Positions 1 to 5,642 of a stretch of 7,909 bases of DNA are shown here, piece by piece. Numbering within the stretch: the first letter of the stretch is position 1; every line of letters starts with the position of its first letter. Below the pieces are notes generated by a model. That model ran no database searches, was not told the origin of the DNA, and was given only the letters and a program-made list of their open reading frames with translations. Both the position numbers and the translations under genes were made by a program. Source of the DNA: Clostridia bacterium (GTDB taxonomy: Bacteria; Bacillota_A; Clostridia; Christensenellales; Borkfalkiaceae); assembly GCA_017504735.1 (NCBI GenBank), contig JAFVQP010000202.1, positions 1 through 7,909 on the forward strand, in the 5' to 3' direction.

Positions 1-657
1 ACATATATAAAAAGTGTGGAAATTCCTGACAGTGTGACTTCGATTGGTGACTATGCGTTCTATTATTGCGATAGCTTGACGAGTGTGGCAATTCCTGACG
101 GCGTGACGACGATTGGTGATTATGTATTCTATTATTGCGATAGCTTGACGAGTGTGGCAATTCCTGACGGCGTGACGACGATTGGTGAACAGGCGTTCAC
201 TGGTTGCGATAGTTTGAGAAGCGTGGTAATCGGAGACAGCGTGACTTCGATTGGTTATTATGCGTTCGCTTCTTGCGGTAGTTTGACGAGCGTGGTAATC
301 CCCGACAGCGTGATAAAGATTGGTGTTGGGGCGTTCCAATATTGCAGAAGATTGACGAGTGTGGTAATCCCTGACAGCGTAACTTCGATTGGTGATTATG
401 CGTTCTATTATTGCGATAGCTTGACGAGCGTGGTAATCGGTGACAGTGTGACCACGATTGGTGATTATGCGTTCTATGATTGCAGTAGCTTGAAGACGGT
501 ATATTATAAAGGCACGGCAAGCGATTGGGAGAATATGTCGATTGATGATGATCACTCTAAATTAACCTCTGCGGCGAGATATTACTACGATGAGAGTGAA
601 AGCGTGGAAATGTGGTGGCACTATGACGCCGCAGGAAACATCGTTTCCTGCGCGTAG
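1..657 (+). CDS. BspA-type leucine-rich-repeat protein, 3' part (5' end outside window)
   Basis: The reading frame is open from base 1, so the gene begins upstream; the GTG at 16 lies inside a repeat and is not a credible start. 218 residues are visible. They hold seven 23-residue repeats of the BspA/TpLRR (LRR_5) type, pattern S-V-x-I-P-D-S-V-T-x-I-G-x-x-A-F-x-x-C-x-S-L-T. A C-terminal tail follows (YYKGTASDWENM, later RYYYDE and WHYDAAGNIV) of a kind common at the ends of such proteins in gut Clostridia. The family is usually secreted or surface-attached and is linked to binding of host or bacterial ligands; any signal peptide would lie upstream. It ends with tandem stops TAG TGA. The last codons form a 10-bp hairpin and the stop lies at the first linker of the adjoining hairpin array, so the C-terminus may have been reshaped by the array. 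The family call is secure; the ligand is unknown. Confidence 0.9.
   Translation, partial: TYIKSVEIPDSVTSIGDYAFYYCDSLTSVAIPDGVTTIGDYVFYYCDSLTSVAIPDGVTTIGEQAFTGCDSLRSVVIGDSVTSIGYYAFASCGSLTSVVIPDSVIKIGVGAFQYCRRLTSVVIPDSVTSIGDYAFYYCDSLTSVVIGDSVTTIGDYAFYDCSSLKTVYYKGTASDWENMSIDDDHSKLTSAARYYYDESESVEMWWHYDAAGNIVSCA
13..495 (+). repeat. Seven tandem 69-bp repeats encoding LRR units
   Basis: Units start at 13, 82, 151, 220, 289, 358 and 427, exactly 69 bp apart, each encoding one 23-residue LRR. Bases 58-119 and 127-188 are identical over 62 bp, indicating recent duplication or gene conversion; units 4 and 5 are more diverged. Confidence 0.9.
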
Positions 658-861
658 TGAAGTTGTGGCAAAGCCACAGTGAAGTTATGCCTACGGCATA
701 GTGAAGTTGCGCTTTCAGCGCAGTGAAGTTTGCCCCTTGGGCGAGTTATTGCCATTATTTATATCAGCCACAACTTTTTGCGGAACGCAAAAAACTTCAC
801 TTTGAGCGGAGCGAAAAACTTCACTTGGAACAAACTTCACTTTGCGCCAGCAAAACTTCAC
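630..861. repeat. Hairpin array 1: palindromic 15-nt units with GTGAAGT / ACTTCAC linkers
   Basis: The left half has linker GTGAAGT at 657, 679, 701 and 723, exactly 22 bp apart. Each linker is followed by a 15-nt hairpin with a 6-bp stem and 3-nt loop: TGTGGC/GCCACA (664-678), TATGCC/GGCATA (686-700), TGCGCT/AGCGCA (708-722), TTGCCC/GGGCGA (730-744, one G-T pair). A 10-bp stem at 630-652 precedes the first linker. The right half carries the linker in reverse complement, ACTTCAC, at 794, 818, 834 and 855. Between these are an 8-bp stem (775-793), a decayed unit (801-817), a 3-bp stem (825-833) and a 5-bp stem (841-854). Bases 745-774 in the centre show no clear unit. The array fills most of the gap between the LRR gene and the yqzL-like gene. 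No coding capacity or transposase is visible. Confidence 0.85.
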
Positions 862-910: not shown

Positions 911-1024
911 ATGCGGGATAAACGGGAAGAAAACGGCGCTGCGCAAATGGCTTGGCAACTCTTTGAAAAAACGGGCAATATCAGCTACTATATGCTCTAC
1001 TACGATATTTTACGGAAGAAATAA
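911..1024 (+). CDS. yqzL: YqzL-like small protein upstream of recO
   Basis: This 37-residue ORF starts at ATG 911 with a strong ribosome binding site GGGAGGG (899-905) five bases upstream. Its C-terminal part, AWQLFEKTGNISYYMLYYDI, matches what I recall of the YqzL family (Bacillus YqzL contains W-x-V-F-x-x-T-G-N followed by Y-L-L). In Bacillota that family is encoded directly before recO, as here, with 18 bp between the genes. An in-frame upstream start at 842 would run through the hairpin array and has no ribosome binding site, so 911 is preferred. CCCAC (881-885) can pair with GTGGG (897-901), which would partly cover the ribosome binding site. The function of YqzL is unknown. Family assignment rests on the short motif plus gene context. 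Confidence 0.72.
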   Translation: MRDKREENGAAQMAWQLFEKTGNISYYMLYYDILRKK

Positions 1025-1042: not shown

Positions 1043-1768
1043 ATGGAAATTAAGACGGAAGCAATTGTGTTGCAATCAATCGACTATAAAGACAACGATA
1101 AATTGCTGACCTTGTTTTCCCCCTCTTTGGGTAGAATTACGGCAGGGATCAGGGGTGTGAAAAAGCCGAAGGCAAAGCTCGCCTTTTCCGCACAGCCCTT
1201 TTGCTTTGCCGAGTATATCCTTGCCGAAAAAGGGGGACGGTACACCGTCACCAATGCCTATCTGCACGAGAGTTTTTTTGCACTCCGTTACGATATCGTG
1301 CGTTTTTATGCCGCTTGCGCAATGGCGGAAATTTGCCTTGCCATTCTGTATGAAAACGAAACGTATGAAGGGTTGTTCGTGGCGCTTATCGAGGGGTTAA
1401 AAGCCCTTGCGTTAGACAACGGCGACCCTGCGGAGGCGGTGCTGGGCTTTACCCTTGTCGCTTTGCGGGAAAGCGGATACCCCCTAGACCTCAGCTTTTT
1501 TGAGGAGTGCGGTGGGGATATCGGGGAAAGGCTGTGGTTCGATTTTGCGGACGGGAAATTTACCACCTTCGATCGTTGCACCCAGGGGGAGCGCGCCAGC
1601 GTTTCCACCTATCATACCTTGCGCAAATGCGCGGGTTTAACCTATGAGGAGGAGGCTTTATCAGGGGGCAGAAAACGCGCCCTGCGCCTTGTGAAGGCTT
1701 ACCTGCTCGAAAAAACCGAAAACAAGCTGGAAAACTTTGGCGAATTTATTCGGTTGTACGAAGAATAA
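1043..1768 (+). CDS. recO: DNA repair protein RecO
   Basis: 241 residues, normal length for RecO. RecO acts with RecR and RecF to displace SSB and load RecA in recombinational gap repair. The N-terminus (MEIKTEAIVLQSIDYKDNDKL, then LFSPSLGRITAGIRGVKKPK) is the family's OB-fold signature, covering about residues 1-80. A helical domain follows (about 85-235). Many RecO proteins have two CxxC pairs here for zinc. This one keeps only the second Cys of each pair (C156 in FEEC, C179 in FDRC), with F153 and F176 at the first positions, so canonical four-Cys zinc binding is unlikely. An AGGA at 1030-1033 lies 9 nt before the ATG. The YqzL-like gene precedes it and the HARE/Mrr-like gene starts 19 bp downstream, suggesting co-transcription. 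Confidence 0.9.
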   Translation: MEIKTEAIVLQSIDYKDNDKLLTLFSPSLGRITAGIRGVKKPKAKLAFSAQPFCFAEYILAEKGGRYTVTNAYLHESFFALRYDIVRFYAACAMAEICLAILYENETYEGLFVALIEGLKALALDNGDPAEAVLGFTLVALRESGYPLDLSFFEECGGDIGERLWFDFADGKFTTFDRCTQGERASVSTYHTLRKCAGLTYEEEALSGGRKRALRLVKAYLLEKTENKLENFGEFIRLYEE

Positions 1769-1787: not shown

Positions 1788-3392
1788 ATGGCAAGAACGA
1801 AAAAGCAAGAGCCGGCAAAAGAAACGGCAATGGTTGTGACCCGTGCGGAAAAAAAGGACGCAACCAAAAATTTAATCAAGGAATGTTTGGCGGTAAAACC
1901 GTTGAAACATAACGAACTGTTGGACGAAGTTGCAAAACTCTACAAAGAACGCTTTGGCGGTGAAGAAACGGAAAATATCAACGACGTAAAGGGTAGGATT
2001 GGGTCTGTCCTGGACATTATGAAAAAGGACAGCGAAGTGATGTACGATGGGGGCATGTATGCGTTGAAAGCGCGTGAAATCCCCGAAAAGCCCGTAGAAA
2101 AAGCGGAAAAGAAAGCCGTCAAGGCAGAACCTGCCAAAAAGACGGCAAAGAAAACCGCAAAAAAGGCGGTAGAAGAAAAGGCGGATACTGTACAAGAGGT
2201 CAAGACGGAAGAAAAAGCGGAAAAGAAAACGGTGAAAAAGGCAAAGACGACGAAGAAAACCGAGCCGTTGCCCCCTGCGCCCATTCAACCGATTGCACCC
2301 GTTGCGCCCGTAACCCCTGAGGTTGCGCCTGAACCCATTCCTGAAGAAAAAGAGGAAAAACCTGCGCCTAAAAAGCGTGGCAGAAAGGCGAAGGCGGAAG
2401 AAAAGCCTGCGGAACAGCCCGTAGAAGAACCTAAGCAAGCGGAACTTGCCCCCGTAGCAGTAAAAACGGAAGAAAAACCGAGGGAAACGCCTGCGGTGGA
2501 GAGTGTGAAAGAGGAAACCCCGAAAGCGGAAACGAGCTTGGTGGTTAAGGAAAAGGCGCCGATTGCGAAAAAGGAAGTGATTGACGTCAGCTTTTTCTTG
2601 GGGAACGCAAATCCTGCGAAAACCCCTGCAAAAGCACCTGTAAAAGAGGAAAAACAGCCTGAAAAGTCTGAAGAAAAAGCGGAAAAGGCTGAAAAACAGG
2701 AAGAAAAGCCCGCCCCTAAAACGGAGAAAAAGCCTGAACCCAAGCCTGAGGCAAAGCCTGTACAAAAACCGCAGGCGCACAACGTAAGAAAGCTGTCGGA
2801 AAGCACTTTACGCAACGTGAAAAAGCCCATACAAAAGCCCCAAACGGCGGATGAAAGACTGTGCGAAGCGTTCTTGAAGCGTATGCGTTCGCTTGGCGGG
2901 GATTATTTCGAGTATTATTCCATTTATCTTTTGGAAAGATATTCGATGAAAAACGGCAGACGTTTGGAAGGGTTACGCATCAACGGCGGTGACCGTGACG
3001 GCGGTATTGACGGTGAAATTGAATTGACGGACAAAATGGGCTTTAAGGAAACCATCTACATACAGTCGAAGAACTGGAACCCTGAAAAGGGGGATGAAAA
3101 GCTGTGGGTGGTTGGTGAAACCTTGTTACAGCAATTCATCGGCGCGTGCGCTTGCCGTCAGGCGAGAGAGGGCAAACAACATTGCCGCGGTATTTTCATT
3201 ACCACCTCTCGTTTCACCCCTGAAGCGAAACGTATTTTGGACACGATGTCGGACAAAATCGTGGGTTACGACGGTAACGATTTGTACGAAGCCGCAAAGG
3301 AATGCGCGTTTGGCTTGGTGGAAAAGAACGGTGTTTGGGCGTTGGATGAAAAGCTGCTGTCGGGCAGTAAAGCCTTCTTTCATTTATACTAA
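1788..3392 (+). CDS. HARE-like winged helix, Lys/Ala/Glu/Pro linker and Mrr-like restriction endonuclease domain
   Basis: 534 residues from ATG 1788, chosen because AAGGAG (1775-1780) sits 7 nt upstream; a longer in-frame start at 1737 would overlap recO. Residues 24-94 look like a HARE/RpoE-delta-type winged helix (helices, then IGSVLDIMKKDSEVMYDGGMYALK as helix and wing). Residues about 95-350 are a low-complexity, probably disordered K/A/E/P linker with H1-like PAKKTAKKTAKKA, an AT-hook-like KKRGRK (195-200) and one hydrophobic island, VIDVSFFLG (264-272). Residues about 353-534 match the Mrr-like PD-(D/E)xK fold: GGDRDGGIDG with candidate catalytic D408, then Q426-S427-K428 (QxK form), then GIFITTSRFT (468-477). 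Mrr-like enzymes cleave DNA, often modified DNA; HARE domains are proposed to sense DNA modification. No methyltransferase is adjacent. The nuclease call is fairly firm; its target is inferred, and a housekeeping role in DNA processing is possible. Confidence 0.78.
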   Translation: MARTKKQEPAKETAMVVTRAEKKDATKNLIKECLAVKPLKHNELLDEVAKLYKERFGGEETENINDVKGRIGSVLDIMKKDSEVMYDGGMYALKAREIPEKPVEKAEKKAVKAEPAKKTAKKTAKKAVEEKADTVQEVKTEEKAEKKTVKKAKTTKKTEPLPPAPIQPIAPVAPVTPEVAPEPIPEEKEEKPAPKKRGRKAKAEEKPAEQPVEEPKQAELAPVAVKTEEKPRETPAVESVKEETPKAETSLVVKEKAPIAKKEVIDVSFFLGNANPAKTPAKAPVKEEKQPEKSEEKAEKAEKQEEKPAPKTEKKPEPKPEAKPVQKPQAHNVRKLSESTLRNVKKPIQKPQTADERLCEAFLKRMRSLGGDYFEYYSIYLLERYSMKNGRRLEGLRINGGDRDGGIDGEIELTDKMGFKETIYIQSKNWNPEKGDEKLWVVGETLLQQFIGACACRQAREGKQHCRGIFITTSRFTPEAKRILDTMSDKIVGYDGNDLYEAAKECAFGLVEKNGVWALDEKLLSGSKAFFHLY

Positions 3393-5307: not shown

Positions 5308-5446
5308 ACGCATATATGGCGAAATGGCGTAGTGAATTGACGGCGGTGCCGTCGTGAATTGCGCCGTTGGCGCGTGAATTGAAAACTTCGTTTTCGTGAA
5401 TTGACAGCTATGCTGTCGTTGTGGGCAAGATAATCTTGCAGCTAGA
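5308..5446. repeat. Hairpin array 2: palindromic units with GTGAATT linkers
   Basis: Linker GTGAATT occurs at 5332, 5354, 5374 and 5396, with the variant GTTGTGG in register at 5418. Between them are perfect hairpins with 3-nt loops: GACGGC/GCCGTC (5339-5353), GCGCC/GGCGC (5361-5373), GAAAAC/GTTTTC (5381-5395), GACAGC/GCTGTC (5403-5417), GCAAGA/TCTTGC (5425-5439). The period is 22 bp, or 20 where the stem is 5 bp. An imperfect hairpin, ACGC/GCGT (5308-5330), heads the array, which starts within 10 bp of the aminotransferase stop. The next 22-bp register (5440 on) is decayed. This has the same design as the array at 630-861 but a different linker and different stem-closing base pair. Confidence 0.87.
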
Positions 5447-5522: not shown

Positions 5523-5533
5523 TAAATATTTAT

Positions 5534-5642
5534 AATGACAATACTGTCATTCCGACTGGAATGAGCATAGCGAATGGAATGGAGCGTATCTCAAGGCTCC
5601 CCTGTGCAAGGGGAGCTCCGCTGAAAGCGGTGAGGGGTTGTC
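5534..5642. repeat. Composite palindromic intergenic repeat
   Basis: Several hairpins run in series: AATGACA/TGTCATT (5534-5551, loop ATAC); CATTCC/GGAATG (5548-5563, loop GACT), where a second GGAATG at 5576-5581 competes for the same arm; GCTCCCCT/AGGGGAGC (5596-5616); and CCGCT/AGCGG (5618-5630, loop GAA), followed by TGAGGGGTTGT. From memory, CATTCC...GGAATGG and GGCTCCCC...GGGGAGCT modules like these recur between genes in many gut Clostridia, which fits a dispersed repeat; copy number cannot be seen from this window. Confidence 0.65.

Follow-up and report, generated by a model that had tools for sequence, protein, structure and literature searches.

The 7,909-nucleotide stretch of DNA analysed here (the window), from a gut Clostridia genome, carries a symmetric element of 205 bp at positions 657–861, which on direct reading consists of four units of a 7-nt word and a hairpin, a core, and four inverted units. 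Hairpin arrays of this kind are confirmed to be real, general and beyond chance, and the short words from which they are built, with or without hairpins between them, are associated with genes of the S23 (or IVP) family of four-helix-bundle proteins, PF05635. The array in the window is probably a MITE-like member, itself non-autonomous, of a family of mobile or once-mobile elements linked to S23/IVP, whose hairpins would act as collapsible spacers between words read by S23; binding of the words by S23, and movement of the element, are the parts of this reading that we infer.

The left arm of the element (657–744, forward strand, by sequence reading and parser) contains the word GTGAAGT at 657–663, 679–685, 701–707 and 723–729, each followed by one hairpin (664–678, 686–700, 708–722 and 730–744). 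Its units have a period of 22 bp with hairpins of 15 nt and loops of 3 nt, exactly as originally predicted, and the stems and loops are, in order, TGTGGC-AAA, TATGCC-TAC, TGCGCT-TTC and TTGCCC-CTT. The core (GTTATTGCCATTATTTATATCAGCCACAAC, 745–774, forward strand, by the same means) has at its ends GTTATTG and CCACAAC, the 7-mers that adjoin the innermost hairpin of each arm. In the inverted right arm (775–861, minus strand, likewise), hairpins at 775–793, 801–817, 825–833 and 841–854 alternate with the word ACTTCAC at 794–800, 818–824, 834–840 and 855–861; because these hairpins vary in length from 9 to 19 nt, the arm has no 22-bp period. The original prediction called all hairpins perfectly palindromic, which is true of six of the eight; the fourth left-arm hairpin has one T.G pair and that at 801–817 a tandem mismatch. 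It also began the array at 630, which must be corrected to 657, since the hairpin at 630–652 (CGCAGGAAACATCGTTTCCTGCG) lies inside the upstream LRR_5 open reading frame, lacks the linker and stands apart from the element. Folded as single-stranded DNA, the left arm forms its four hairpins and no others, at −19.6 kcal/mol and with a z of −4.42; the right arm folds less well, its two strands giving z −1.25 and −1.80. The covariance model of Gut-1 RNA (RF01706) aligns to the left arm at 677–754 with a score of 35.0 bits (E 2.1e-5 for 301 bases searched) and weakly to the right arm at 813–875 on the minus strand with 20.8 bits, both below the gathering score of 50; at gathering scores no Rfam family matches anywhere in the window, and the Rfam search finds LSU rRNA absent from it.

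The element sits between a gene for a BspA-type LRR_5 protein, cut off at its 5' end (1–657, forward strand; ORF and Pfam), whose TAG stop at 655–657 shares one base with the start of the element, and yqzL-recO. The latter consists of a YqzL-like ORF (911–1024, forward strand; Pfam match on the longer frame 842–1024) and, downstream, recO (1043–1768, forward strand), whose product has its three best matches, 88–90% identical, in metagenome-assembled genomes that are all from ruminant gut. The product of 1788–3392 combines a long low-complexity middle rich in K, E, P and A with a C-terminal Mrr_cat restriction-endonuclease domain. A second, lone arm lies at 5332–5417 (forward strand, sequence and parser), with the word GTGAATT starting at 5332, 5354, 5374 and 5396, the hairpins GACGGC/GCCGTC, GCGCC/GGCGC, GAAAAC/GTTTTC and GACAGC/GCTGTC, and the conserved inner end GTTGTGG at 5418–5424 (forward strand). 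Both arrays of the window are gene-less, with an S23 gene in neither. After the lone arm, 5332–5424 with its inner end, comes a different repeat (GCAAGATAATCTTGC...), which also follows an arm in locus L215; beside the lone arm, at 5530–5640, are REP-type palindromic repeats (GTCATTCC...GGAATG; CTCCCCT...AGGGGAGC). Lone arms followed by another repeat (GAGATTGC...CGCAATGAC), like composites of two families, also occur in L190 (genome G012) and in L172 and L183 (genome G017).

The pattern is widespread among relatives. Twenty-two genomes reached via RecO loci were searched for pairs of the word around a spacer, a search that had been proposed with the original prediction and that returned many loci. 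GTGAATT-N(9-25)-GTGAATT occurs in nine of the 22, with a maximum of 149 matches in G002, where the reversed pattern has none and of which there is a single match across all 22 genomes; GTGAAGT pairs occur in seven, with a maximum of 51 in G017, compared with four matches in three genomes for the reversed control. In a sample of 396 genomes from the order, 190 have at least one GTGAAKT pair, in most cases just one or two, a level also seen in the control, and 10–155 matches occur in 23; twenty of these are taken here as array-rich, G402 and G119 being excluded because a simple ATGAATT repeat was matched and G229 because of a high reversed control. Self-complementarity of the spacers far exceeds chance, as the shuffle test suggested alongside the prediction makes plain: among 283 word-bounded spacers, which come from stretches of related gut Clostridia chosen by the linker only and include copies that are partly non-independent, 202 are perfect palindromes. 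Shuffling the letters 500 times yields 2.0 on average and never more than 8, and exchanging 3' halves between spacers of the same length yields 30.6.

In the stretches read, a parser recognised 45 full elements (41 distinct) and 79 lone arms (78 distinct), and before de-duplication the modal number of words per arm is four (58 of 90 arms of full elements, 43 of 79 lone arms). Within arms of the 41 distinct full elements, 297 of 391 word pairs are identical, and not one of 391 hairpin pairs is; across arms the corresponding counts are 312 and 0 of 501. These counts, with the palindrome excess, bear out the central claim of the original prediction, that linker and self-complementarity are kept as stems vary. 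The two arms carry different words in eight of the 41 elements, each arm still being largely uniform, and the family includes further words (ATATMAC etc.) beside GTGAAGT and GTGAATT. The closing base pair of the hairpin follows the word, being G-C in 123 of 140 cases for GTGAATT and T-A in 79 of 87 for GTGAAGT. In 79 of 97 arms the 7-mer after the innermost hairpin reads GTNNNNG, so the heptamers of an arm may number five, a count that is suggestive only. According to a crude gene caller, gene neighbours are co-directional at 35 of 42 elements versus 534 of 817 gaps overall, the median distance is 20 nt to a stop codon and 69 nt to a start codon, and 15 of the 42 elements overlap an ORF call. 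Outside the 41 elements, one arm of the S23 element of G002 has two hairpins that repeat; at L165 (4254–4458) one arm of the S23-bearing element of G002 has grown to ten words with two hairpin units alternating.

The link with S23 is seen in three gene-bearing copies (G002, G003 and G247), in which arms of the family stand around one S23 gene. The arm pairs of G002 and G003 enclose a core of 384–385 nt with one gene, whose start codon comes after the inner arm end, and the enclosed protein matches 23S_rRNA_IVP PF05635 (9e-27) and TIGR02436 in profile searches. PF05635 is present in 26 of the 56 genomes first tested and in 106 of the 396 in the order sample, where it is found in 15 of the 20 array-rich genomes versus 91 of the 376 others (p 5e-6), the latter including G402, G119 and G229, all PF05635-positive. 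It has no match in five of the 20 array-rich genomes, nor in G008, G017 and G022, genomes that may be incomplete.

Flanks were compared for 133 S23 genes from 135 loci (two without a recognised gene), which represent part of the PF05635 matches listed, taken best-scoring first and with some loci at contig ends omitted. A strict detector, which accepts perfect hairpins between near-identical 7-nt words at most 450 nt from a gene, finds hairpin arrays beside 38 of the 133, of which 35 are upstream, 14–185 nt before the ATG. Control frames in recO loci score six times upstream and six downstream in 1767; frames used as controls include spurious frames and coding flanks, and the test was redone on called genes with an upstream gap, with arrays at 4 of 300 such genes from recO loci and at 15 of 258 from the array-rich G002 and G022. 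Other frames in the S23 loci also score (49 of 465 upstream, 42 of 460 downstream) because an S23 gene and its neighbours have flanks in common. A smaller early count gave arrays at 16 of 27 S23 loci versus 32 of 400 ORFs from array-rich stretches. Another 38 of the 133 S23 genes, with no overlap with the first set, have pure tandem heptamers beside them (at least four copies, at most 300 nt away), and tandem repeats of at least four copies with periods of 5, 6 or 8–12 are found beside none of the 133. The cut-off of four was used because three or more copies proved noisy, period 5 then also scoring at 21 of 133. Among controls, period-7 repeats occur at 1 of 500 frames and at 0 of 300 and 1 of 258 called genes. 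Where heptamers of at least three copies stand on both sides they are inverted across the S23 gene in 26 of 27 cases. With these strict detectors, neither type of array is found beside 57 of the 133 genes; arrays of one type or the other thus flank over half of the S23 genes examined in the order.

Heptamers accompany S23 well beyond the order. When the 30 S23 loci with the highest scores in a phylum-wide set are taken, heptamers flank 15 of them, with no other period and, by the strict detector, no hairpin arrays at any of the 30. Of 27 named records found, 18 were compared (17 plasmids and one phage; 13 cyanobacterial), and in 12 of these 18 heptamers of at least four and at most 37 copies flank S23, again with no other period. 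Nine of the 12 are cyanobacterial and one each belongs to Bacteroidota, Spirochaetota and Chloroflexota; a run of four heptamers is missing in Monoglobus, the single phage record and four cyanobacterial records. Other coding sequences in 50-kb stretches of three of these plasmids have heptamers at 2 of 35, 4 of 58 and 0 of 43, one of these plasmids having a further S23 fragment with heptamers there too. Very long arrays, of 37, 15 and 13 copies, are on Nostoc, Bernardetia and Euhalothece plasmids (L431, L425 and L435), with a possible tie to cyanobacterial 7-bp repeats. On other plasmids a reversed S23 gene lies between cas2 and cas1 or beside cas1 (L436, L437 and L440; the former arrangement in Nostoc sp. 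TCL26-01 and Anabaena cylindrica, the latter in Pseudanabaena); elsewhere an S23 gene lies between HsdS and HsdR (L427) or between drmD and pglX (L434).

The word also follows the protein. For 34 of the 38 S23 genes with hairpin arrays (four near-copies being dropped), protein distance correlates with word distance (Mantel r 0.548), a value reached in none of 20,000 permutations, the largest of which gave 0.227. Nearest S23 neighbours differ at 0.91 of the seven word positions versus 2.49 overall, and where one genome has two S23 clades (G141, G279 and G125) these have two different words. This shows that an S23 gene and its arms go together, but taken alone it is no demonstration of binding, since such a correlation would also be expected under mere co-inheritance.

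As described in the text of PMC4990558, the S23 protein of Xanthomonas is a homopentameric toroid, and that of the Coxiella intervening sequence (IVS) is argued not to be made in vivo. The modelled closest database homologue of the G002 protein (pLDDT 96) resembles the S23 structures 2rld (TM 0.90) and 2gsc (TM 0.84). Each subunit of a pentameric S23 ring could read one heptamer, successive words being recognised around the ring; a hairpin between two words would fold out and leave them adjacent, as they are in pure heptamer arrays, making the two kinds of array equivalent. Selection would then be left only on self-complementarity and the closing pair, with stem letters and lengths free to drift and the word fixed. 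Such a ring-reading model would account for the fixed word, the fixed closing pair, the free stems and the small number of units, and by binding both arms S23 would shield the element's ends, bring them together or present them. The linker looks like a conserved functional word because heptamer arrays flank S23 genes in the absence of hairpins too. The original prediction, partly supported overall, lacked this likely role of the linker, as well as the symmetric pair of arms and the S23 partner.

How the hairpins change bears on what is folded. Among arms from the same genome, ten pairs with an identity of 70% or more contain nine stem pairs changed on both sides and still paired, and 11 changed on one side; loops changed most of all parts, at 33 of 135 positions. 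Hairpins at the same position are thus related, with compensated changes, and stems drift and are not redrawn each time, which amends the original prediction of unrelated hairpins. C-G closes 226 of the 268 triloops, and loops read in the GTGAA orientation are strongly directional (TTC 54 versus GAA 1, TAC 31 versus GTA 1, TGC 19 versus GCA 1), with a weaker bias for TTT (37) over AAA (9). Read on the opposite strand, they become triloops of the forms c(GNA)g and c(ANA)g and tetraloops that are mostly c(GNNA)g. Loops of these three kinds form exceptionally stable DNA hairpins. Arrays with other words beside S23 have purine-N-A in 50 and T-N-pyrimidine in 10 of 79 triloops. The bias is fixed per arm, so that one half of an element shows it on one strand and the other half on the other. 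Stem mismatches include 40 G.T and 43 A.C, with no excess of G.T, and an RNA strand signature in the form of a G.U excess was accordingly rejected. Together, the loop bias and the absent G.T excess suggest folding as DNA, either single-stranded or extruded into a cruciform, rather than as a transcript. Where the original prediction allowed for selection on RNA or DNA structure, the DNA half is thus the one favoured. A recurring hairpin, TTCGCTNNCGCTCA, retains, in arrays of different words and genomes, a tandem mismatch that is TC/TC on one strand and GA/AG on its complement, and its recurrence, at 801–817 and in several relatives, means that perfect pairing is not always demanded.

An alternative is that the arrays are structured non-coding RNA or UTR elements, as in the Gut-1 reading, selected as RNA and with S23 as one of several regulated genes. 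The matching plan of hairpin, 7-mer and hairpin in the Rfam family, the compensated stem changes in close copies, and the position of many elements near a start codon, that of the S23-linked arrays before their ATG included, would all suit this explanation. It is nonetheless unlikely, since the mismatches have no G.U preference, the loop bias goes with the arm and so switches strand within an element, GNYA loops (34) are at least as common as GNRA loops (23) in the list of four-base loops for the loop-favoured strand, and heptamer arrays with no hairpins occupy the equivalent place beside S23. More improbable still is hairpin-templated copying, that is, template switching at quasipalindromes that creates and repairs palindromes with no selection on the fold. 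The near equality of double compensated and single changes in close copies and the high rate of change in loops are what it would give, but template-switch inversion should mix loop orientations that are in fact kept, the mismatch of the recurring hairpin persists across words and genomes, and the S23 link would go unexplained; copying of this kind is not needed.

The dispersed copies, many and mostly intergenic, point instead to the S23-linked mobile element. An element upstream of yqzL in L045 is missing in L015, L025, L013 and L008, where both flanks align, and that of L002 is missing in L008, although these alignments are diverged and loss of the element is possible instead; for the two arrays of the window, no convincing empty site was found among the loci compared. 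One element with near-identical hairpins has three copies in G009 (one beside S23 and one a lone arm), one in G010 (beside S23) and one in G016 (without S23), and two of the G009 copies share a flanking stretch with the G010 copy. No target-site duplication was seen in 18 elements, with no excess over shuffled flanks, and no catalytic partner for movement was found. On this comparison of copies the family appears to be mobile or once mobile, which is short of proof. Movement by a Y1/HUH transposase (RAYT), as for REP and REPIN elements, is a very remote prospect: REPs do have a tag and hairpin, paired inverted units and an intergenic position, as described in PMC3733652, but the words here are not GTAG/CGTC and the stems are unconserved, PF01797 occurs in seven of the 22 genomes and is missing from the array-bearing G003, G008, G014, G015 and G017, and its copies in G002 and G022 read as IS200-like, with the nearest arms found at least 1.6 kb off. 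The transposase link was rejected because PF01797 does not track the arrays. Equally improbable is a ladder of four-way junctions formed by left–right pairing of linkers, which the inverted arms with mostly the same word would permit, and which was rejected as a selected feature because the pairing is broken in the eight elements with different words in their two arms and because lone arms are common.

A wider proposal, which we hold tentatively and at somewhat less than even chance, is that S23/IVP proteins serve, as dedicated partners, a single and very widespread class of mobile elements whose hallmark is inverted sets of about four to five 7-nt words read by a pentameric ring, with hairpins as collapsible spacers that free the stem sequence. 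Gut-1 and the other hairpin arrays of gut Clostridia would belong to this class, as would 23S rRNA intervening sequences and perhaps the cyanobacterial 7-bp repeats. The family is large (7992 of 8000 candidates scored were homologues) and its function is unassigned in the title of 2rld, in 2gsc ('conserved hypothetical') and in the text of PMC4990558. A period-7 DNA signature beside S23 genes in several phyla offers a testable ligand for the protein, which can be studied together with the hairpin arrays. Gut-1, an orphan RNA family, gains a genomic setting, one explanation is offered for 23S rRNA intervening sequences, and the arrays display an unusual mode of evolution in which foldable stems with drifting letters stand between fixed words. 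Among the titles and abstract openings listed in searches of an open-licence library, none links S23 to palindromes or to heptamers, and no text was found there that brings Gut-1 and the IVS together; heptamers and inverted repeats at S23p are reported in the Coxiella IVS paper (PMC4990558).

Several known systems resemble these arrays in part. REP/REPIN-BIME elements with RAYT have in common with them a short word and hairpin, inverted pairs, a mostly intergenic and dispersed distribution and one linked gene family, which made them a fair, if loose, analogue in the original prediction; the arrays differ in unconserved stem letters, about four units per arm and an associated protein that is S23 (PF05635) and not a tyrosine transposase such as RAYT, and the GTAG/CGTC tag, conserved stem and linked tyrosine transposase that define REPs are all absent. 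Avd of diversity-generating retroelements, which works with a reverse transcriptase, has an S23-like fold by TM score (0.79 between 4dwl and the modelled homologue, but with E 0.13). Cyanobacterial STRRs are 7-bp short tandem repeats forming period-7 arrays like the heptamer arrays, and TRAP is a ring protein that reads tandem short words, in its case RNA triplets; we know of no link of either to S23.

One known relative of the window's array is Gut-1 RNA, with the same plan of hairpins joined by a 7-nt word, GUGAAAU; covariance-model alignment finds a constant 7-nt word between hairpins in both, and the S23-linked arrays L247, L256 and L270 pass the Gut-1 gathering score that the window does not. 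In the text of PMC2864571, Gut-1 is rated as certain to be an RNA, not cis-regulatory and restricted to the human gut. It was described as a non-coding RNA, whereas here the same plan makes up a single arm of a DNA element that is symmetric, uses many different words and also exists in a form with an S23 gene. The 23S rRNA IVS has the same protein family, with an S23 ORF between inverted repeats as in the G002, G003 and G247 copies; that of Coxiella, as presented in PMC4990558, carries GACAGAT heptamers ahead of the start codon (ATG) of S23p and a terminal stem of 28 bp, and a mobile origin of IVS was proposed by older authors cited there. The arrays described here differ in being outside rRNA genes, often hairpin-spaced and in many copies gene-less: LSU rRNA is absent at 10 order-level S23 loci, and of 10 phylum-wide loci only L295 is inside it. 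With MITEs they share small size, inverted repeats, a place between genes and gene-bearing relatives; terminal inverted repeats and dispersed copies are both present, but no target duplication was seen, and the ends are arrays and not simple terminal repeats. What sets the proposed S23/IVP-heptamer class apart is found directly at S23 genes, namely flanks with a period of seven that are inverted when two-sided.
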